From NCBI RefSeq assembly GCF_945862485.1, contig NZ_CAMAYF010000002.1, forward strand, positions 102,659 through 166,658: 64,000 bases of DNA, given 5' to 3'. Origin of the DNA: Sphingorhabdus sp. EL138 (GTDB taxonomy: Bacteria; Pseudomonadota; Alphaproteobacteria; Sphingomonadales; Sphingomonadaceae). The notes beneath the pieces were generated by a model that was not told where the DNA came from, did no database searches, and was given only the letters and a program-made list of their open reading frames with translations. The position numbers and the translations under genes are program-made. How positions within the stretch are numbered: position 1 is the stretch's first letter; each line of letters starts with the position of its first letter. Positions 24,329 to 35,242 of this stretch are shown in pieces.

Positions 24329-25141
24329 TCAGGCAGGGTGTTTGGAAACAACCCGAAGGCGCAGGTCGAGTAAGGGCGCATCCAATATGGCGCGGCCGAC
24401 GTCGACTGCATCGGCCCCTGCCTCTGCCGCTGGCACCAGATCCTGCAAACGGACACCGCCACCAAATGCCAGCCGCACGTCCCGCCGCAATCCAAGCCGC
24501 GTGAGTTCGGCGTGCACGTCGGCTAAATCGGCTAGGTCGGCGGTATCAACCATGATGATCCCTGCGCCCGTACGCACCGACGAAACGGCTTCGGCGACTG
24601 ATTTAACCTGCACGGCCACCGGACCATGACCGACGGCAACGCCCGCCTTAATCGCGGCATCCACACCACCCAGCATGATAACAGCGTTTTTACCGACATA
24701 GACAAAATCGCCAGCAACAAGCCGCGGCAAGATACCAGAAACAGCAAGCCCGGCGCGCAGCAATTGCTTCAAAGCCAAAGGCAATTTCTTCCATCCGCCG
24801 CAAGCAATGGAAAGGCCGGCAGGCGCAGATTCGCGAAACGTCTTCGCGCGCGTCGCAATTCCCGAAGCAAAACCGAGAGGCCCAAGCACATAGTCTTCCG
24901 CAACGCCCAAATGCGCTGCCTCACCAATCAGTTCGATAAGTGGCTGTCCTGCGGATACGGCATCTCCTTCCGCCACCAGCAATCTCCACGATCCGTTCGG
25001 TCCTAACGAGTCCGACGGGTCGACAAAACCAGTGCCTGCAATGATGCCATCCTCGCAGGCTTCGACAATGGCACGATAAAGGCCCGTTGCGCCGCCAAGC
25101 AGGCTTCCGGCGATGTCTGCTGCCGCAGGTGCTGGGTTCAC
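24329..25141 (-). CDS. NadC-like quinolinate/nicotinate phosphoribosyltransferase family protein (ModD/NadC fold)
   Basis: EGDAVSAGQPLIELIGEAAHLGVAEDYVLGPLGFASGIATRAKTF, KNAVIMLGGVDAAIKAG, VAVQVKSVAEA, GAGIIMVDTADL, LAFGGGVRLQDLVPAAEAGADAVDVGRAI align with the NadC domain order. Confidence 0.72.
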   Translation of the reverse strand: MNPAPAAADIAGSLLGGATGLYRAIVEACEDGIIAGTGFVDPSDSLGPNGSWRLLVAEGDAVSAGQPLIELIGEAAHLGVAEDYVLGPLGFASGIATRAKTFRESAPAGLSIACGGWKKLPLALKQLLRAGLAVSGILPRLVAGDFVYVGKNAVIMLGGVDAAIKAGVAVGHGPVAVQVKSVAEAVSSVRTGAGIIMVDTADLADLADVHAELTRLGLRRDVRLAFGGGVRLQDLVPAAEAGADAVDVGRAILDAPLLDLRLRVVSKHPA

Positions 25142-25869
25142 ATTGTCACCAAAAAGAAATTCGCGCCGTTGGGGAGGTTTTCGAACACCTTGCCGCCATA
25201 AGCACGCGCAGAGGTGACCACTTTACATTGCGGCCACTTGCCAAAACGCGCACCAGCCGCTTTCAAAAAAGCCAATGCGGTCGGTGTGACCGTTTCACCG
25301 CTAGCGTCCGCTCCGTATACTGGAACGCCGTTGAGCATCTCCTGAACCGCGGGTGGCAGGCTGGCCAATAGTCCATGTTCGCAACGGATTATGCCATCAC
25401 ACATCGGCAGAGGGCTGCAATGGAACTCGGCCGGGTCAATCTTTGTGAACAGCGCTGCAGCAACGCAGGTGTCTAAAATAGAATCGAGAGCGCCAACCTC
25501 ATGAAAATGCACTTCGTCCACCGAACATCCATGCACGGTGGCTTCTGCTTCGGCCAATATCGCAAACGCTTTTGTTGCCAGCGATTTTGCCGCATCGGTC
25601 AACCCGCTGCGTTCTATGATGTCATAAATCGTTTTTGGCGTGCGGTGGTGGTGTTCATGCGGAAGGGTAATGCGCGCCTGAAATCCGGTAATCCAATTCA
25701 CATGATGCGGTTCAACGGTCACGCAATCATGCAGCGCTTCCACCCCGATACTATCGACCAGAGCCGACAGTTCGGCATTGCTTACCCCTGCCAGTCGGGC
25801 AAGGCCCGTCAGCAGCATATCGCCGCTAATCCCCGAAGGTGTGCGCAAAACGATCGATTGGCGCTTCAT
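25138..25869 (-). CDS. larC: LarC-like nickel-pincer cofactor nickel-insertion protein, short form
   Basis: MKRQSIVLRTPSGISGDMLLTGLARLAG...HEHHHRTPKTIYDIIERSGL...DEVHFHEVGALDSILD...PTALAFLKAAGARFGKWP; start ATG 25869 overlaps larB stop (ATGA). Confidence 0.88.
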   Translation of the reverse strand: MKRQSIVLRTPSGISGDMLLTGLARLAGVSNAELSALVDSIGVEALHDCVTVEPHHVNWITGFQARITLPHEHHHRTPKTIYDIIERSGLTDAAKSLATKAFAILAEAEATVHGCSVDEVHFHEVGALDSILDTCVAAALFTKIDPAEFHCSPLPMCDGIIRCEHGLLASLPPAVQEMLNGVPVYGADASGETVTPTALAFLKAAGARFGKWPQCKVVTSARAYGGKVFENLPNGANFFLVTM

Positions 25870-26534
25870 GTCGTGTTCCTTGAAATCATATTGAGTATCC
25901 GGATCGCGCCGCACGCCGCACCAAAGCCATTGTCGATGTTGGTCACCAAAACGCCCTGCCCGCAGCTTGATAACATGGAATGCAATGCGCTCGTTCCGCC
26001 TGCTGCCACACCATATCCAGTCGAAGACGGAACCGCGATGACGGGCTGTCCAGTTAATCCGCCCATCACAGAGGCAAGAGCAGCATCCCATCCCGCCACA
26101 ACAATCACAAGATCAAATGTTTTGATATGGTCTATCCGCGCCAACAAGCGGTGGATGCCCGCGACACCAACATCGGCAATACGTTCCGCATGGATACCCG
26201 AAAATTGCAATGTGCGCATCGCCTCACCCGCTACGCGTAGGTCCGATGTTCCTGCTGTTACCACTGCGACTGAAAATGGCCGCGGTGGAAGAGTGCCATG
26301 CAAGTAGGCTGTGTGCGATTGTATATCATAATCCAACGACGCCCCGCTATTGATCGTGAGATCTGAATATTGATCAGGCAACAGCCTTGTAAACAGAGCG
26401 GGCGCACTAATGTTCTTCGAAAGCTCCTGATAGATTGCGTCTAACGCAATCGGGTCTTTACCCTCGCAGAAAATAGCTTCCGGCATTCCCAATCTTGTTA
26501 GGCGGTCTTCATCATGCACAAATCCGCTGTTCAT
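25866..26534 (-). CDS. larB: LarB, pyridinium-3,5-biscarboxylic acid mononucleotide synthase
   Basis: VAVVTAGTSDLRVAGEA...GGLTGQPVIAVPSSTGYGVAAGGTSALHSMLSSCGQGVLVTNIDNGFGAACGAIRI. Confidence 0.93.
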   Translation of the reverse strand: MNSGFVHDEDRLTRLGMPEAIFCEGKDPIALDAIYQELSKNISAPALFTRLLPDQYSDLTINSGASLDYDIQSHTAYLHGTLPPRPFSVAVVTAGTSDLRVAGEAMRTLQFSGIHAERIADVGVAGIHRLLARIDHIKTFDLVIVVAGWDAALASVMGGLTGQPVIAVPSSTGYGVAAGGTSALHSMLSSCGQGVLVTNIDNGFGAACGAIRILNMISRNTT

Positions 26535-27361
26535 TTTGCCTCCACAAAGGCCCGGCCGGGCTTATAAGACTGCGCATCCAGATGCGCCATTTGAATGCTT
26601 GGTTCGAAAGTTGCCGCAAGTTCGCCCAATTCGCGAAGCAGCCGCGCCGTAATGAAATTACGGTCATCATCCGTCACTTCAACGATAAGCTGATCATCTT
26701 TCACGCGGCACCTTACGACAATGATACCGGTGACTTCTTTCACCCGCTTTTCGCAAGCATGCACGGCACGCAGGCGTTCTGCGGTCACCCTTGTTCCTGT
26801 ATACAAGCGACTGGCAAGGCACGGCGACGAAGGAAGCTCGGCAAAGGGCACTCCAAGTAAACGCGCTAGCGTCCGAATGTCCGCCTTGGCATATTCAGCT
26901 TCGATCCAAGGATGACGCACGCCGCGTTCCGCCGCGGCATCAAGACCAGGCCTGTATTCGCCAAGATCATCCAGATTGGCGCCGCTGAGGACTGTTCCAT
27001 TGTTATGCGCCGACGCAATTTGCATGAGGCTATCATACAGATTGGATTTACAAAAATAACAGCGGTTTACCGGGTTCGAGAGATAGTTTTCATCCTGAAA
27101 TTCGCCAGACAGAACAATCGATAGCTGCCACCCCTCCTGCTCCGCAAGCGTCCGCACCCGTTCAGTCGCCTCTGGCGGAACGGCTGGGCTGATTGCGTGC
27201 GCAACTGTTACCTTTTTAGGGGCATGACGATGTGCGACCAGAGCGAGCAGCGTGGAATCTATCCCGCCGCTACACGCGATAACGGCATGATCGATGCCGT
27301 CCAAAACGATTTGAATTTCCTGAATATGGTCAGAGACAGGCATGTACAACTGGTCCAGCAT
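26531..27361 (-). CDS. larE: LarE, ATP-dependent sulfur-transfer protein for NPN biosynthesis
   Basis: PP-loop ACSGGIDSTLLALVAH, CYFCKSNLYDSL, SGANLDDLGEYRPGL, LPSSPCLASRLYTGTRVTAERL. Confidence 0.93.
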   Translation of the reverse strand: MLDQLYMPVSDHIQEIQIVLDGIDHAVIACSGGIDSTLLALVAHRHAPKKVTVAHAISPAVPPEATERVRTLAEQEGWQLSIVLSGEFQDENYLSNPVNRCYFCKSNLYDSLMQIASAHNNGTVLSGANLDDLGEYRPGLDAAAERGVRHPWIEAEYAKADIRTLARLLGVPFAELPSSPCLASRLYTGTRVTAERLRAVHACEKRVKEVTGIIVVRCRVKDDQLIVEVTDDDRNFITARLLRELGELAATFEPSIQMAHLDAQSYKPGRAFVEAK

Positions 27362-27926
27362 AAAGTTTATGGCGCGTGATATAATCTAGGACACTGGCAT
27401 GCATCATGCCCTCCGATGGTCGTCCACCGGAAGACAAAATTGCCCTGACCGAACTCGAGGATGTTGCTACAGAGGCGAACTCCAACCAAATCAACCGCTC
27501 GTCAGGTGTCGCGGCATATATTTTATTTCTCGGCAGGATCGCGAAACGTAACATGCTATGCAGATCGGCTATCCCTTTCCAATGCTGCAGGCGGTCGACA
27601 CAGTCATCCCCCAATAAAAAGAAAAGCTCCGTTCCTTTAGGAAAGGTCGCTTGTAAACTCCTTACGGTGTCGACTGTAAAACTTGGCCCGATCCGGTCAA
27701 TTTCAATCGTGCTGACGCGCATAGCTTTTTCGCTTTGAATAGCAAAGTTCAGCATAGCAACGCGGTGTTTGCCATCGGCAAGGCCGGTATTCCCCTTAAG
27801 CGGCGGGTGACCGGACGGGATGAAAACTACTTCGTCAAGCAACACGGCTTCTTGGGCATTACGCGCTGCCGCAACATGACCTTCATGGACGGGGTTGAAA
27901 CAACCTCCATATAGGCCAACACGCAT
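27330..27926 (-). CDS. NadD-like nicotinate-nucleotide adenylyltransferase
   Basis: MRVGLYGGCFNPVHEGHVAAARNAQEA...FIPSGHPPLKG...ELFFLLGDDCVDRLQHWKGI nucleotidyltransferase motif; start ATG 27926. Confidence 0.87.
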   Translation of the reverse strand: MRVGLYGGCFNPVHEGHVAAARNAQEAVLLDEVVFIPSGHPPLKGNTGLADGKHRVAMLNFAIQSEKAMRVSTIEIDRIGPSFTVDTVRSLQATFPKGTELFFLLGDDCVDRLQHWKGIADLHSMLRFAILPRNKIYAATPDERLIWLEFASVATSSSSVRAILSSGGRPSEGMMHASVLDYITRHKLYAGPVVHACL

Positions 27927-27928
27927 AT

Positions 27929-28540
27929 TTATGCGCCCACCAGCCAATAACCACCCATGCCGATAGCAAGGGTTGCAACGCAAGCGCGGATCGGTTTGAC
28001 AAAAGTCTGTCCGCGCTGAGCAATCAGCGCCTGTAACCGGTCAAAAGCGTGACCAAACCCAATCATCCCGACAAGCACACCGAACGAAAAAACAAGAACA
28101 TAGAAAACCCCATGAACTGGCGACAGCAATCCGATGGGAAGTAAGGCAAAAACCGCCGCACTTCCCGCGGTGCCATGGACCATCCCAATCAAAAATGGTG
28201 CGCGTGTTCCGGGCAATAATGTTTTGGGGCTATTGTTCCGCCATAACGCGAGAGCAAGGCTACCACCGGCGGCAATCAGGATAACTCCGACAATACGCTC
28301 CGCGCCTGTTGGCAAGGTTTCGGGCAGAGGTGTTTTAAACAACAGCAAGGCAAGCGCGGCAATTACCAAGATGCCCCCATGGCCAATTCCCCAAGAAAAC
28401 GCATATCGCTTCGTTGCACCCCGCGCGTCAGGGCGCGCGCCAAGCGACGACATGGTCATCACATGATCAGGATCAAAAGCATGCAAAATGCCCATGCCAA
28501 GGCCAGCCACAAGGACCGTGAGAAATTCGAATGATATCAT
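27929..28540 (-). CDS. nickel/cobalt transporter-like membrane protein (NiCoT/UreH-like)
   Basis: GMGILHAFDPDHVMTMSSLGA carries HX4DH; several hydrophobic helices (LGMVHGTAGSAAV etc.). Confidence 0.75.
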   Translation of the reverse strand: MISFEFLTVLVAGLGMGILHAFDPDHVMTMSSLGARPDARGATKRYAFSWGIGHGGILVIAALALLLFKTPLPETLPTGAERIVGVILIAAGGSLALALWRNNSPKTLLPGTRAPFLIGMVHGTAGSAAVFALLPIGLLSPVHGVFYVLVFSFGVLVGMIGFGHAFDRLQALIAQRGQTFVKPIRACVATLAIGMGGYWLVGA

Positions 28541-29439
28541 ATATGTGCGAGCTCCATTTTATGGGCCTTCCAAAGTGCCCGAATGGGTGTTGCAATTGTT
28601 TCTGCCAATGTGGCAGGTGCCTGCCCTTCGGCCACTGCCTTTACAAGTACTGGTAGGGCGGCCAAGACTTCCCGCGTTGGTCCCGGCAGGGCGACAAGCA
28701 ATATATTGCCAATGCGCCCACATGCTACACGGACATGGGGTTTAACATGGCGGCCATGGCCCACCTTATATTCTGCTAAAACGGCTGTCGAAAGCTCCGG
28801 AGCAAGGCGCTGCATCGCCTCGATCGTTTTGTCTTTATCTTCTGCCCCGACGCCACCAGTCGTGATGATCATGCCATAACCTTCTTCAAGCAAATGGCCA
28901 ATACGCGCCGCGATCAGCGCTTCATCATCTTCGATCACGCCGGCATGATCGACCCGATAGCCTTGATCACCCATTATAGATTTCACAGCGGCGTAGTTTG
29001 TATCCTCAATTTCCCCGCGCGCCACTTCGCCACCGGTGGACAGCACCACAACGGACCGAGCCACATAAGCTTGCAATCCCGCCTCAAGATTTGCCGCATT
29101 AGCCAATATATCTGCGGCCTGCTCGGCGGGCGCACCTATCACTCCTAGCACGCCGAAGCTATGCACTGATGCTTGGTTACCCAGTGTGACACCTGAAAAA
29201 GCTGCGAGTGCAGCAAGCAGCGCGGCTTCTTTGCCCGCAATTGCGTCGAGGATGACGGTCTGAGACACCACGTCAAACACGACCCTTTGGTCACGGACGT
29301 CGGTCACAAATATGTCTTCCGGTCCTAAACCTAATATATCGCCGGCACATAGAGCGAGGCGGGTGAGATCCACATCATCAAGAATGATGTCTTCTACCCA
29401 AAGCTCGGTCTTGGAGAGAAGGTCAAGGTCAGTTGCCAC
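28537..29439 (-). CDS. MoaB/Mog/CinA-type (MoCF domain) protein with extra ~130-aa N-terminal domain, copy 1
   Basis: VVVLSTGGEVARGEIEDTNYAAVKSIMGDQGYRVDHAGVIEDDEALI..IITTGGVGAEDKDKTIEAM...LVALPGPTREV. Confidence 0.78.
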   Translation of the reverse strand: MATDLDLLSKTELWVEDIILDDVDLTRLALCAGDILGLGPEDIFVTDVRDQRVVFDVVSQTVILDAIAGKEAALLAALAAFSGVTLGNQASVHSFGVLGVIGAPAEQAADILANAANLEAGLQAYVARSVVVLSTGGEVARGEIEDTNYAAVKSIMGDQGYRVDHAGVIEDDEALIAARIGHLLEEGYGMIITTGGVGAEDKDKTIEAMQRLAPELSTAVLAEYKVGHGRHVKPHVRVACGRIGNILLVALPGPTREVLAALPVLVKAVAEGQAPATLAETIATPIRALWKAHKMELAHI

Positions 29440-29442
29440 GGG

Positions 29443-30858
29443 TCAGGAAAGTCCGCGCTGTGCCAGCCATTTGGGCAATAACTCTTCACCAACCATTTTA
29501 TCGACCGCTGGCGCACGTGCCTTCAACAAGTCGGCTAAGGCTTGATTGCAGGTCAAATGGCCATAGCTTCCGTCAAAAACGATCAATTTGTCTGTCTGTC
29601 CCTTTTCACACGCCATCGCGACGCCCTGATGCAAACTGTCAACCACAGTGGCGCGGTCCATCAACAACGGGTTAGTAGGGTCTTCACGCCACATCTGAGC
29701 TTGTTCTTCGCCGACAATATACATTGGCGTTGTAAAGGGCATGGTCACATAAGGAATGCCTGCACCAACCCAAGCCTGATTGACAACAACCCCGCGCAAA
29801 TTTTTATTCCGCGAGAAGTTTACTGGCGCAGTGGGCGATTGCATGAATCCTGCAACTACAGGTTGGTCAAGGTCGAACGCATCCGAATGGTTGGTAAGAA
29901 GCGTGCCAAAAATCAAACCGCCGCCATGAAGATAATAGCCCCAGCGACCGCCGTCCCAAATGGCAACACAATCCTTTATCTCCGCGAATAATCGCTGCAT
30001 TCGGCCATAGGTTTCAAGATGGCTTTTGGTAATGCGTCGATCAATGGCATATAAATCGGTTGTCGCATCGACCCCAATGACCCCCATGGGCGTCGTGCAC
30101 AATACTGAACTAAATGTATAACGTTGCTGGATGAAGTCGCTATCGAACAGTGCGCGGGGGATGACGCTGCCGCTGCGATTGCCGAACATGCTATGATAAA
30201 CAGACCGCGTTTCATACCGCGCATAAGACATGCAAAACGACTTGAACGATTTGTACAACAACCGATTGAAGTACATTTCGCGCGGATCGTCATAATAAGC
30301 GTGGATGAACTTTGTCGCATCAAAGGCCCGTTTGATGAGGTACATCGGACCTACAACAGTTTCGACTTCAACGCCTTGGTCAAATGGCCCGAGGCCTTTT
30401 ACCCGTCCCTCGAATGCCTCGTTAAATCCGAAATGCTCGGCAACTTCTTCTGCCTCTTTGAAGCCCCGATAAATGGCCAGCCGCAAATGGATTTTTGTAC
30501 ACCCCGTGCGCTCTATCACAACTTCGCGGATCGTTTTGATCATTTCGGCATAAGGCCAGCCGCCCATCAAGCCAAAGCCATGCTCCGAAGCGAGAATGTT
30601 AACGCTATCCGTCGCCGCAATGCTCGACATATCAACGAGGGCAAGCGATTTGCGCGTTTCAGCGCGTACCCGCTCTAGATCAGCTTCGAGTGTTTCGGGA
30701 TATCCCGACGTTATAGCAGGCGCAAAGTTTGGGAAGAATTCTGTCAGCGGTACCGAAACCATGGACTCAATCGTCTCGGAAACATGCGGCTGAAGCGCTG
30801 GCCCGTAATCTGAGTGCATGAATGCAGGAGGCTTGATCGCGGTATGAGCATTCATCAC
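29443..30858 (-). CDS. divergent LarA-like candidate NPN-dependent enzyme, copy 1
   Basis: 471 aa; colinear with 32925-34355 (SDFIQQRY, YAR-E-RS-YH, EI-DCV); embedded in lar operon; K-x15-H spacing as LarA Lys184/His200. Confidence 0.55.
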   Translation of the reverse strand: MMNAHTAIKPPAFMHSDYGPALQPHVSETIESMVSVPLTEFFPNFAPAITSGYPETLEADLERVRAETRKSLALVDMSSIAATDSVNILASEHGFGLMGGWPYAEMIKTIREVVIERTGCTKIHLRLAIYRGFKEAEEVAEHFGFNEAFEGRVKGLGPFDQGVEVETVVGPMYLIKRAFDATKFIHAYYDDPREMYFNRLLYKSFKSFCMSYARYETRSVYHSMFGNRSGSVIPRALFDSDFIQQRYTFSSVLCTTPMGVIGVDATTDLYAIDRRITKSHLETYGRMQRLFAEIKDCVAIWDGGRWGYYLHGGGLIFGTLLTNHSDAFDLDQPVVAGFMQSPTAPVNFSRNKNLRGVVVNQAWVGAGIPYVTMPFTTPMYIVGEEQAQMWREDPTNPLLMDRATVVDSLHQGVAMACEKGQTDKLIVFDGSYGHLTCNQALADLLKARAPAVDKMVGEELLPKWLAQRGLS

Positions 30859-31466
30859 AATATCTCCTTCGAAAGTGGCCCATATTTGTGTTCGGGATCA
30901 AAAACCGCCCTGTCTTCTTCAATATAGGCGTCAGGATATTTGGCACACACTTCATCGCTTAGATCATAAAGCGAGAGCGTTGAGGGATACCAACGGTGTT
31001 GACCCGGCGGCGTCATATCGCATCCTGCAGCTTCAAGCAGACGCAGCGCTGGAGCCACGCAGTAAATGCCACACCCCGACCGCATACCGGTTGCTGCACA
31101 GACTTCTTCTAGATTTTTCGCACCTTTGATAATCGAAGCTGCGATTTCCGATCCCGGCGTCAATGTGCACACACATACTGACATGGCGGCTTCAATACCT
31201 GCTTTCTCGAGCAGAGCGGTCACTGCCTCCTGATCCACTTCGTCAGGATGAACGGTTGTCACCAACGGTTCTGAACGCTGTATCATCCACATGATATCTT
31301 CGGGGCAGCGATCAACGCAGCGTCCACAGCCAATGCACAAGGCTTCGTCAATAACAGGCTTACGCGCTTCCATTTTAATGGCACCACTTGGGCAGACGAT
31401 GTCACATAATTTGCAACCAGTGCATGGATCCGCGTTATAATCTGCGACAAGTTTTATCGTGGCCAC
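30855..31466 (-). CDS. 2x[4Fe-4S] ferredoxin with C-terminal BFD-like [2Fe-2S] domain, copy 1
   Basis: CTGCKLCDIVCP, CIGCGRCVDRCP, then CVCTLTPGSEIAASIIKGAKNLEEVCAATGMRSGCGIYC. Confidence 0.85.
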   Translation of the reverse strand: MATIKLVADYNADPCTGCKLCDIVCPSGAIKMEARKPVIDEALCIGCGRCVDRCPEDIMWMIQRSEPLVTTVHPDEVDQEAVTALLEKAGIEAAMSVCVCTLTPGSEIAASIIKGAKNLEEVCAATGMRSGCGIYCVAPALRLLEAAGCDMTPPGQHRWYPSTLSLYDLSDEVCAKYPDAYIEEDRAVFDPEHKYGPLSKEIL

Positions 31467-31478
31467 TTTCGCTCTCCC

Positions 31479-32150
31479 TCACAATTTCTCGGGCGTTCGA
31501 AGCGCCTCGAGCAAAACATGAATTTGTTCGAAGGCGGCAGCTATAGGCTTGCTACCTTTCGGATTTGCAAACAAAGCCTGTGCCAATCCCCATATCGAGT
31601 GAACATGCAGGATCGCCAACGCATGAGGATCGGAATTAACTGGAATAAAATTTGCTTTGCGGCAAATTTCGAACAAGCGTTCTATCCGCGCAATTAAATC
31701 AACGGTAAGATTGTGCACGCGGGCAGACAAAGCGGCATCAGCATGCATAAGCGCCGCTGCATGTAAGGCCATTTCTCCGCGCACGACAATACTGTGATCG
31801 CATGCCCCGTGAAGCTTGCCATAATAATCACTTACAGATTCGAGATGCCGCATGAGGCAATCCCAAGCACCTTGCGCGCTTAATTCATCGGCACAATTCA
31901 AGAGTTCCAAATGATTGTCACGCCGAATGCGTTCATCGAGAAGTTCTAGTGCTAGGTCCGATTTCTCAGGATAATGATATTGTGCAAGCGTCCGGCTAAA
32001 TCCCGCTTTTAGGCTGATGGCCGCTAATGTTGTCGCATCATATCCGTTTTCGCCAAATAACAACAATGCAGTGTCGCGAATCCGCTCCTTTGCTGCTTCT
32101 GTACGTTCTTCTTGCGTACGAGAGATAACGGCAACACTTACCATATTCAC
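31479..32150 (-). CDS. TetR/AcrR family regulator of the NPN divergon
   Basis: IRDTALLLFGENGYDATTLAAISLKAGFSRTLAQYHYPEKSDLALELLDERI. Confidence 0.9.
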   Translation of the reverse strand: MNMVSVAVISRTQEERTEAAKERIRDTALLLFGENGYDATTLAAISLKAGFSRTLAQYHYPEKSDLALELLDERIRRDNHLELLNCADELSAQGAWDCLMRHLESVSDYYGKLHGACDHSIVVRGEMALHAAALMHADAALSARVHNLTVDLIARIERLFEICRKANFIPVNSDPHALAILHVHSIWGLAQALFANPKGSKPIAAAFEQIHVLLEALRTPEKL

Positions 32151-32187
32151 CTGCCCCGAATCCTCTTGCTCTCAACAATCTACAAAC

Positions 32188-32204
32188 TTACTGTCAGACA
32201 GTAA
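32188..32204. promoter_or_regulatory. candidate TetR operator TTACTGTC-A-GACAGTAA
   Basis: Perfect 8-bp-arm palindrome in the intergenic region between divergent tetR (32150) and ferredoxin-2 (32269). Confidence 0.7.
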
Positions 32205-32268
32205 ATAAAATTGATTGATTCCTTTTTGGCTGCATCAGCCAAGTTTATGACTTTGACAGGAGGAGCGC

Positions 32269-32919
32269 TTGCCCAAACGCGTTCGCATGGTGGCACAAAT
32301 CATCGTCGATAAATGCACAGGCTGCCGCCTGTGTGAGCAAGTGTGCCCAACGGTTGCGATTGGTATGCGGCCACGCCGCGCGGATGAGCCTGGTACAGGA
32401 CGCAACATAGCCGTCTTAGAACCAGAAGCCTGCTACAATGCACAGGCATGTGTCGAAATCTGTCCTGATGATGCCATCGAGATGGTCGAGTTAGACGAAC
32501 CTTTTGATGTCGGTTTTGAACTACCCCAAGTCGACGAAGACGCCGTAAAAACATTATGCCGAAAAGCAGGCTATGGCCGCAATATGCAAATTTGTGTTTG
32601 TACCGATACCAAAGCCGGGGACATCGCGACGGCCATTATCGCGGGTGCACATTCTCCTGAAGCGGTTTCGCTTGCGACCGGTGCCCGAACAGGATGTGTC
32701 GAATTATGTATGCAACCCATCTTGCATTTGCTCGCTTGTGCAGGGCACGGAGATGCTCCACGTAACCCCAAAAATGGGTTCCAATGGTATGGCGAGTCAG
32801 CAACTTTATGGCAACATGTGCAGCCCGACGGCTCGCTCCCCGAAGCGATCCGTAACGCCTTCCCTGAATATCCGCTCGACAAGGAATTTGGTGACATGGC
32901 GAAATTGAAAAGGCGTTAA
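32269..32919 (+). CDS. ferredoxin-like protein with two cluster motifs (second degenerate) and C-terminal BFD-like domain, copy 2
   Basis: CTGCRLCEQVCP, CYNAQACVEICP, CVCTDTKAGDIATAIIAGAHSPEAVSLATGARTGCVELC; TTG start with aggagg upstream (alternative ATG 32287). Confidence 0.82.
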   Translation: MPKRVRMVAQIIVDKCTGCRLCEQVCPTVAIGMRPRRADEPGTGRNIAVLEPEACYNAQACVEICPDDAIEMVELDEPFDVGFELPQVDEDAVKTLCRKAGYGRNMQICVCTDTKAGDIATAIIAGAHSPEAVSLATGARTGCVELCMQPILHLLACAGHGDAPRNPKNGFQWYGESATLWQHVQPDGSLPEAIRNAFPEYPLDKEFGDMAKLKRR

Positions 32920-32924
32920 TCAGA

Positions 32925-34355
32925 ATGGCGTTGCTTTCACCATTTATGGACGCGTTGCGTCCGCCAGCCTTTCACCGCACATGGAACAAGCGCGAGCCCG
33001 CCAAGGTGGTCGCTAAGCGTGCAGCTGATCTTCCCGGTATGACCGCCCTGCCCATCCGTTCTTTGATGCCGGACCTGCCGCAGACGATCTGGTCCGAAGA
33101 TGCTTTGCTTGGGCCAACAAATCTCGATGAGGTGCGGCGGCAGGCACAGGTCAGAGCAGAAGCGCTGGACTGGTCTAAAATTGAAGCTGGTCGCATGGTC
33201 AATCTCATTGCCAATCCGCATGGCTTGCAATTATGCGGCGAGGCCTATGTGACAATGCTTGAGGTGATTGCCGAGCATGTCAAAAAGACCCGTGGCGCGA
33301 AAGTTCGTCTGCGTATCGCGGAATCGATGGGGCATATCGAAAATCCCGATTGGGTAAAAATCTACCGGCTCGAAGAGCGGTTCGGAGATGTCGAAGAATG
33401 CCCGCAAATGGGTGCCGGAACCAAAGTCGATACAAAACTTGGCGACATGTACGTCACCAAAAAATTGTTCGATGCACCCTATTTTATTCACACCCATGTG
33501 ACCGAAATGCGCGAGGGCTATTTGCACCGCATGCTCGATCGGCTGATGAAACCGTTTGGCATGGCATATGCCCGGCTGGAATCGCGCTCAGCTTATCATT
33601 TCGGCTTTGGCCCGCGCACAGGCCAGATTGTGTCGCGCTGCATATTTGAAAGCGACTTCATCCAGCAACGTTATGTCGGCACCATGGTGCTTGATACCAC
33701 ATCGGAAGGGGTGGTCAGCGTCGAGGCCGATAATGATTTAAAGGCACTTGATCGTCGTTTGGCCGCAGGGATCATGCGCAACTACGCCATGGCTATGAAA
33801 ATTTTGGGCGAAATAGAGGATTGCGTGGTGGTATTCGATGACCATGGCTGCGGCGTTTATTGTTATGCTGGCGGAATTGCATTCGACAATATGCTCTGCG
33901 CCGACGTCGATTTCATGGATCTAGACAACTTATCTTTGCTGGCGGCAGAACGTCACGATAGCGCCGAACCGGGCCTAACCATGGGCAAAAACAATGCCAT
34001 TAAAGCGATTGTAGTCAACTATATGGCGGGTGGTGTGCCTCAGCCATTTCTTTGGGATAATTATCCGATCCATGTCGTTGGTGACACGGTAAACAGATGG
34101 ATGTTGAACGATCCATCCAACTATCATTTTGATCGTGCAAAGGCTCCTGTCTGGCCGACGTTGGATGAGGCCGTTGAAGCGGCCTGCCGCGATGGAGGGA
34201 CTGACAATATCATCGTGTTTGACCGCACCCCCGGTGCCTTCAGGGTTAGCCGAAAGCTAGGCGAGCACCTCATGTCACGCGCACCGCATGTTCGCGATCG
34301 GGTCGAGAATGAATTCCTACCCAAATGGTTACGTCAACGCGGGTTAGCACTATGA
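32925..34355 (+). CDS. divergent LarA-like candidate NPN-dependent enzyme, copy 2
   Basis: 476 aa; paralog of 29443-30858; AKVRLRIAESMGHIE..., FIHTHVTEMREGYLHRMLDRLMKPFGMAYARLESRSAYH; K-x15-H. Confidence 0.58.
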   Translation: MALLSPFMDALRPPAFHRTWNKREPAKVVAKRAADLPGMTALPIRSLMPDLPQTIWSEDALLGPTNLDEVRRQAQVRAEALDWSKIEAGRMVNLIANPHGLQLCGEAYVTMLEVIAEHVKKTRGAKVRLRIAESMGHIENPDWVKIYRLEERFGDVEECPQMGAGTKVDTKLGDMYVTKKLFDAPYFIHTHVTEMREGYLHRMLDRLMKPFGMAYARLESRSAYHFGFGPRTGQIVSRCIFESDFIQQRYVGTMVLDTTSEGVVSVEADNDLKALDRRLAAGIMRNYAMAMKILGEIEDCVVVFDDHGCGVYCYAGGIAFDNMLCADVDFMDLDNLSLLAAERHDSAEPGLTMGKNNAIKAIVVNYMAGGVPQPFLWDNYPIHVVGDTVNRWMLNDPSNYHFDRAKAPVWPTLDEAVEAACRDGGTDNIIVFDRTPGAFRVSRKLGEHLMSRAPHVRDRVENEFLPKWLRQRGLAL

Positions 34356-35242
34356 CGTCGGTTCAATTGTTGGAAAAAACAGAGGTCTGGCTTCATGGGA
34401 TCAGCCTTGCCAACGCGAACCTTCCGAATTTGGCTAATGTCGTTGCCGACATACTCATGTTGCCGCGTGATAAAGTGTTCGTGACCGACGTCCGGGCAGA
34501 TTTGGTCGTCTTGGACATTTTGGTGCCACGTGTTGAGCTGGAAAATATTACCGGTAAGCAGGGCGAACTGCTTGAGGCGATCGCCGACATATCTGGTGTT
34601 CACGTCGCAGATAATGCATCCATTCATTCCGAAGGCATTTTGGGCGTCATCGGAACGCCACGTGCCGAGGTTGACCGTTATCTGGCCGATGCGCGCAAGT
34701 TGGAAAACCAGATCGCTCATTATGCATCGCGCCGCGTCGCTGTGGTCAGCACAGGCAGCGAGTTACTCGCTGGCGAGATAGAGGATACAAATTTTGCGGC
34801 CATTCGCAGTGCGATGGACGATGCTGGTTTTGAGGTTGAATTTGGTGGCATCGCTGGTGACAGCGAAGCGGAGATCGCCGGCATTGTGGCCCGATTGTCA
34901 GGTGAAGGCTTCGGCATCATTATCACCACCGGCGGTGTTGGCGCAGAGAACAAGGACCACACGATTGAGGCGATTGAACGGCTCGACCCAGACCTTTCTA
35001 CAGCTATATTGGCGCAGTATAAGCGTGGCCATGGCAGGCATGTAAAAGATGCGGTGCGGATTGCTATCGGACAGCTTGGTTGGTCGACGATCTTTGCTCT
35101 GCCCGGACCTACGCATGAAGTTAAACTGGCCCTGCCCGTCATAATGGATGGTTTGAAAGCGAAGTTAGACAGGCGCGATCTGGTGGAAGCCATTGCGGTG
35201 CCGCTGCGCTCGACCCTGCCCCATCATCACCATCACCATTGA
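34352..35242 (+). CDS. MoaB/Mog/CinA-type (MoCF domain) protein, copy 2, with native C-terminal His6
   Basis: VAVVSTGSELLAGEIEDTNFAAIRSAMDDAGF...IITTGGVGAENKDHTIEA...FALPGPTHEV...STLPHHHHHH*; ATG overlaps upstream TGA. Confidence 0.8.
   Translation: MTSVQLLEKTEVWLHGISLANANLPNLANVVADILMLPRDKVFVTDVRADLVVLDILVPRVELENITGKQGELLEAIADISGVHVADNASIHSEGILGVIGTPRAEVDRYLADARKLENQIAHYASRRVAVVSTGSELLAGEIEDTNFAAIRSAMDDAGFEVEFGGIAGDSEAEIAGIVARLSGEGFGIIITTGGVGAENKDHTIEAIERLDPDLSTAILAQYKRGHGRHVKDAVRIAIGQLGWSTIFALPGPTHEVKLALPVIMDGLKAKLDRRDLVEAIAVPLRSTLPHHHHHH

Follow-up and report, generated by a model that had tools for sequence, protein, structure and literature searches.

The window, a 64,000-nucleotide stretch of DNA from Sphingorhabdus sp. 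EL138, carries two divergently transcribed gene series built around a pair of related genes, denoted X1 and X2 (Table 1). The minus-strand series, which runs from position 32150 down to 23484, comprises in order a TetR-type regulator, the ferredoxin gene Fd1, X1, MoCF1, a NicO-like membrane protein, NadD, LarE, LarB, LarC1, a QRPT-like protein, and a short-chain dehydrogenase (SDR). The divergent plus-strand series consists of Fd2, X2, MoCF2, an SDR, a thioesterase, an aldo-keto reductase, an FMN oxidoreductase, and an enoyl-CoA hydratase.

Table 1. Features of the X1/X2 locus, with positions counted from the first nucleotide of the window.
Feature	Position	Strand	Description
LarC1	25138..25869	minus	nickel-insertion domain alone; 151 bits (cut-off 90, NCBIfam)
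QRPT	24329..25141	minus	divergent quinolinate phosphoribosyltransferase-like protein; linked to X family
LarB	25866..26534	minus	pyridinium-3,5-biscarboxylate mononucleotide synthase; 238 bits (cut-off 175, NCBIfam); matches solved LarB structures
LarE	26531..27361	minus	245 bits (cut-off 150, NCBIfam); matches solved LarE structures
NadD	27330..27983	minus	nicotinate-nucleotide adenylyltransferase; TIGR00482, 137 bits (cut-off 112)
NicO/HupE-like membrane protein	27929..28540	minus	probable nickel transporter; weak profile match below cut-off
MoCF1	28537..29439	minus	~130-aa N-terminal region without assignment and CinA/MogA-like MoCF_biosynth domain
X1	29443..30858	minus	471 aa; predicted LarA-fold protein; K206, H222, Y196, F133 (last uncertain)
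Fd1	30855..31466	minus	two [4Fe-4S] motifs and BFD-like [2Fe-2S] domain; dedicated X1 partner
TetR-type regulator	31479..32150	minus	118-bp gap between its start and the start of the divergent Fd2 gene
Fd2	32269..32919	plus	Fd1-like architecture; dedicated X2 partner
X2	32925..34355	plus	476 aa; predicted LarA-fold protein; K209, H225, Y199, H137 (last uncertain)
MoCF2	34325..35242	plus	MoCF1 paralog

LarB, LarE, and LarC1 of the window all score above curated cut-offs and in this respect resemble the LarB/LarE/LarC systems of L. plantarum, T. maritima, and M. thermoacetica, from which the locus differs by having neither a LarC2 domain nor a LarA client and by the addition of NadD and the QRPT-like gene. 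The LarC2 domain is not found in the Sphingorhabdus genome (96.6% complete) and is absent from genomes G000–G002; LarA is likewise not found in the former. LarE resembles the [4Fe-4S] type of LarE proteins in having a CxxC motif and, further on, another Cys, and the QRPT-like protein has replacements at the positions of the Arg of TRK and the His of NHR in NadC. Genes for MoCF and QRPT lie near most X loci and are fused together in one of them (L013). A search of the literature covered here for a link of lar genes to ferredoxin, QRPT, or MoCF found none.

X1 and X2 align end to end with 34% identity (E = 9e-86), and the string of conserved residues by which the first-pass annotation had recognized them as full-length paralogs is present in both. 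Searches of the two proteins against Pfam, NCBIfam, and the PDB sequences gave zero matches, and a Pfam search of 17 X homologs gave no family match for any member. The homolog set comprises 34 sequences with a divergence down to ~33–36% identity, drawn from sphingomonads, Actinomycetota, Desulfobacterota and related deltaproteobacteria, Clostridium, and a Thermoproteota archaeon; the frequency of X is 1 in 399 for Pseudomonadota, 11 in 395 for the phylum of genome G013, and 1 in 250 for the phylum of genome G009, and X was not found in the plasmid records searched. In the tree of these sequences, X1 and X2 fall into separate deep clades, and the pair travels together in sphingomonads and Actinomycetota. 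A recent duplication as the origin of the two copies is rejected on the strength of this tree, and the subfunctionalization that had been proposed for them is, for the same reason, wrongly timed if it is taken as a recent event.

Structural prediction was carried out with AlphaFold, using alignments built solely from the window proteins and the fetched homologs, and yielded models of pLDDT 89.4 and pTM 0.91 for X1 and of pLDDT 83.6 and pTM 0.86 for X2. When compared with the PDB by Foldseek, the X1 model matches only 8ezh, 7s91, and 6d6z at E ≤ 1e-3 (2e-8 to 3e-7), and the X2 model retrieves seven LarA structures (5e-7 to 3e-6), followed by a next match at 1e-2. For both models, the PDB matches below E = 1e-3 are thus exclusively lactate or malate racemases, separated from the next match by approximately four orders of magnitude; the comparison that the first-pass annotation had proposed as a check of a LarA-like fold is thereby answered in its favor at the level of predicted models. 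The TM-scores of 0.38–0.52 and rmsd values of 6–10 Å between the models and LarA structures suggest that the two LarA domains are arranged differently in X.

In LarA, a Lys tethers the nickel-pincer cofactor NPN, one His binds nickel, and a further His is catalytic (PMC12611868). Both window copies carry, as had been noticed from their sequences, a Lys and, at a distance of exactly 16 residues toward the C-terminus, a His (K206/H222 in X1; K209/H225 in X2), and these two residues are invariant across the 34 homologs; given the divergence of that set, the pair is no chance match between two copies. Profiles of the X homologs and of 19 LarA homologs were aligned by hhalign in 100 resamplings; early alignments with 17 and 8 sequences were weak, and the larger sets with resampling gave a stable alignment of the Lys and His. 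The proposed correspondence with LarA Lys184 and His200 is recovered in 100 of 100 resamplings. Position 199 of X2 is placed on the catalytic His174 of LarA in 94 of 100, and the prediction of a conserved Tyr at this position holds for the two window copies (Y196 and Y199) and fails for other homologs, in which His or Asp is found. LarA His108 is aligned to X2 residue 137 in 38 resamplings and to residue 136 in 13, and has no counterpart in the remaining 49; the suggestion that a His108-like residue is present in copy 2 and missing from copy 1 agrees with H137 and F133, at a position that is hypervariable among the homologs (H/F/Y/L/V/I/A) and is not firmly aligned to LarA. Neither catalytic position is His in X1, and both are His in the archaeal member L011; the His pair, which two-base racemase catalysis requires (PMC12611868), is not conserved across the X homologs, and the DxTR motif, with which LarA binds nucleotide or substrate, has likewise not been retained. 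As judged from these profile alignments, the pair that holds the cofactor is kept in X and the acid/base pair of the racemases is lost.

DUF2088 (LarA) and DUF362 are members of one clan, CL0471 (PMC11770544). The PF09861/DUF2088 profile matches none of the 17 X members searched and nothing in the Sphingorhabdus genome; similarly, neither window protein matches the DUF362 profile (PF04015), for which there is no match in G000. In profile–profile comparison, the score of X against LarA is 27.5, next to a maximum of 27.3 in 60 column shuffles, and that against DUF362 is 41.4 (E = 1.6e-4), next to a shuffle maximum of 26.2; the same test gives 26.1 for LarA against DUF362. Since X thus scores marginally against LarA and clearly against DUF362, with LarA and DUF362 themselves at 26.1, X fits best as a third family in clan CL0471 rather than as a member of LarA, and a shared predicted fold and a remote sequence homology, as expected of a clan member, are both found. 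The description of X1 and X2 as highly divergent LarA proteins is therefore borne out by the predicted fold and the Lys/His pair and has to be amended with respect to family, as the LarA profile is unmatched and the sequence is closer to DUF362. With the LarA superfamily (PF09861 Lar_N/DUF2088; IPR048068), X shares the predicted fold, the Lys and His 16 residues apart, and, in the window, the linkage to larB, larE, and larC; it differs in matching no LarA profile, in keeping neither the His108/His174 pair nor the DxTR motif, and in having a ferredoxin for each gene and QRPT and MoCF partners. With DUF362, X shares its best sequence-profile similarity, which lies in the N-terminal region, and the association with Fe-S clusters known for some members; it differs in that the ferredoxin of X is a separate gene and that the similarity stops short of the Lys/His region.

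A ferredoxin gene of the Fd1/Fd2 type is located directly upstream of X in 34 of 34 cases, and the four Cys of its BFD-like domain are conserved in 34 or more of the 35 ferredoxins compared. The distances among X proteins and among their ferredoxins are correlated (0.90, a figure to which relatedness contributes), and the ferredoxins beside X1 and those beside X2 separate cleanly, with mean distances of 0.25 and 0.34 within the groups and 0.66 between them. Fusions of the ferredoxin with a GltD-like FAD/NAD(P)H module occur in three loci, namely L012 and L107 (Pfam Pyr_redox_2 and Fer4_20) and L015 (BLAST); modules of this GltD type are absent from the window cluster.

X is genetically linked to NPN biosynthesis: larB, larE, and larC1 lie beside X1, and both LarC and LarE exceed their cut-offs in every one of the 15 X genomes tested initially. 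The lar neighbors and the lack of LarA in the genome, neither of which the first-pass annotation had mentioned, lend its interpretation independent support. LarA is present in nine of these 15 and missing from six (G000, G001, G002, G005, G008, and G014), and many of the homologs come from metagenome-assembled genomes, so that absences of LarA and LarC2 weigh less than presences. Against a background of 14 LarC-bearing genomes among 190 alphaproteobacteria (the Sphingorhabdus genome included), LarC occurs in 3 of 3 X-bearing sphingomonads and in 13 of 189 others (one-sided hypergeometric p ~5e-4 by hand calculation, for three genomes that are related); because of this relatedness, the shared lar linkage amounts to one event or a few. 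LarC is encoded in 34 of 40 Desulfobacterota genomes without X and in 9 of 10 new genomes with X, and co-occurrence in this phylum was dropped as support, the background already being 34 of 40. In G453, a genome with X, no LarC is seen, and most X loci beyond the sphingomonads are without adjacent larB, larC, or larE.

On the basis of the predicted fold, the conserved residues and their alignment to LarA, the gene linkage, the co-occurrence with lar genes, and the ferredoxin pairing, X1 and X2 are probably LarA-fold NPN apo-proteins that receive a lar-made cofactor and work with their own ferredoxins, as oxidoreductases rather than racemases. The invariant Lys would form the thioamide tether for NPN, like LarA Lys184, and the invariant His would be the fourth nickel ligand, like LarA His200. 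NPN would be made by LarB, LarE, and LarC1 from the adjacent genes, with the local NadD supplying NaAD, the substrate of LarB, and with the NicO-like transporter perhaps bringing in the nickel for the cofactor. Each X would be partnered with a ferredoxin of its own, carrying two [4Fe-4S] clusters and a BFD-like [2Fe-2S] cluster, and the most likely chemistry would be a one-sided hydride transfer between substrate and NPN, with electrons passing to or from the ferredoxin. NPN binding by X is regarded as likely, and a net redox function has about an even chance of being correct. Three features favor net electron transfer over racemization, namely the pairing of every X with a ferredoxin of its own, the fusions to NAD(P)H modules, and the missing two-base pair; since L011 has His at both positions, the chemistry may differ between clades, and the racemase type is possible in parts of the family.

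Alternatively, X1 and X2 may bind NPN as ordinary 2-hydroxyacid racemases or epimerases in which the acid/base residues have been replaced, with the ferredoxin serving in maturation or repair of the cofactor. LarA homologs in which one catalytic His is changed to Asn do exist (PMC12611868), the archaeal L011 has the complete His pair, and 2-oxo-acid enzymes are encoded near several anaerobic X members, all of which is consistent with such a role; however, a maturation factor is expected once per genome, as for LarB, LarC, and LarE, whereas one co-diverging ferredoxin accompanies each X, and the fusion of the ferredoxin to an NAD(P)H/FAD module in three loci and the lack of His at either catalytic position of X1 also argue against it, so that this explanation is considered unlikely. 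A further departure would be for X to be a DUF362-like, Fe-S-linked protein of CL0471 that uses another nucleotide or metal cofactor, the lar neighborhood of the sphingomonads being incidental or there for something else. The closer sequence profile of DUF362, the C-terminal ferredoxin-like Cys region of some DUF362 proteins, and the non-sphingomonad loci without larB, larC, or larE beside X point in this direction; yet LarC and LarE accompany X in all 15 genomes first tested, including three sphingomonads from a class in which LarC is rare, the Lys and His correspond exactly to those of LarA, and Foldseek matches LarA enzymes only (although there may be no solved structure of a DUF362 protein to match), which together leave a DUF362-like identity improbable.

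The pathway rather than the protein is at issue in a third proposal, namely that X uses a modified pincer cofactor: a variant pyridine nucleotide, built or adenylylated by the QRPT-like protein and MoCF, would be finished by LarE and LarC1 in replacement of LarC2. Genes for QRPT and MoCF accompany X in different phyla and are fused in L013, the QRPT-like protein lacks the Arg of TRK and the His of NHR of NadC, and LarC2 is missing from G000–G002; by contrast, LarB and NadD in the window indicate the ordinary NaAD route, and a full LarC is encoded in other X genomes, so that there is little likelihood of a modified cofactor. The broader proposition that X constitutes a new nickel-pincer family, with net redox chemistry coupled to ferredoxin (in some lineages to NAD(P)H) and with a dedicated, partly altered NPN pathway (QRPT-like, MoCF, and LarC1 without LarC2), is put forward tentatively, at somewhat less than an even chance.

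In the literature covered, every characterized NPN enzyme is a racemase or an epimerase in which the redox step is hidden; an NPN enzyme wired to a ferredoxin, if true, would be a new use of the nickel-pincer cofactor. X1 and X2 are good candidates for the missing NPN users in a genome without LarA, and the X family provides, with named residues, candidates for the non-LarA NPN-binding proteins that have been predicted in the literature; since X is rare, it can account for no more than a part of the orphan genomes. Eight loci of anaerobes encode an FAA-hydrolase-fold (MhpD-like) protein near X, and some have aldehyde ferredoxin oxidoreductase or UbiD as well. The neighbors on the X2 strand hint at an acyl-CoA or carbonyl intermediate of catabolism as the substrate.

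The QRPT-like protein, a divergent quinolinate phosphoribosyltransferase relative linked to family X (the proposed LarA-fold proteins), matches the NadC profile under the cut-off. Two NadC motif residues, Arg in TRK and His in NHR, are replaced in it, while K118, K119, R140, K151, and N152 (QRPT-like numbering) are retained in at least 19 of 20 aligned family members; judging from these residues, quinolinate may not be its substrate. Fusion of a QRPT-like and a MoCF domain in a single ORF of L013, an X-bearing locus from another genome, suggests that the two act in successive steps on one nucleotide. The MoCF2 paralog ends, in the genome sequence, in six C-terminal His residues, a possible metal-binding tail.

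Coordinates of the features discussed (window positions unless a locus is named).
Feature	Location	Strand
QRPT-like protein	24329-25141	-
LarC1	25138-25869	-
LarE	26531-27361	-
Six-His end of MoCF2	35225-35242	
QRPT-like–MoCF ORF	L013:7631-9367	
Lone LarC2 domain	L014:13037-13516	

In known LarC, the LarC2 domain matters for the CTP-dependent step. In all three X-bearing sphingomonad genomes (this one and two relatives), LarC consists of the LarC1 domain alone, and no LarC2 match was found elsewhere in them. A Clostridium genome encodes a lone LarC2 domain near X and a full LarC elsewhere.

The window LarE carries CYFC and a later Cys in SPCLASR, the cysteine pattern of the [4Fe-4S]-dependent LarE of T. 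maritima (PMC9283937). Several DUF362 proteins (PF04015, clan CL0471) among L122-L141 have a Lys with a His about 9 residues before and another 13–15 residues after; by this sequence pattern, they too might bind a cofactor similar to that proposed for X.
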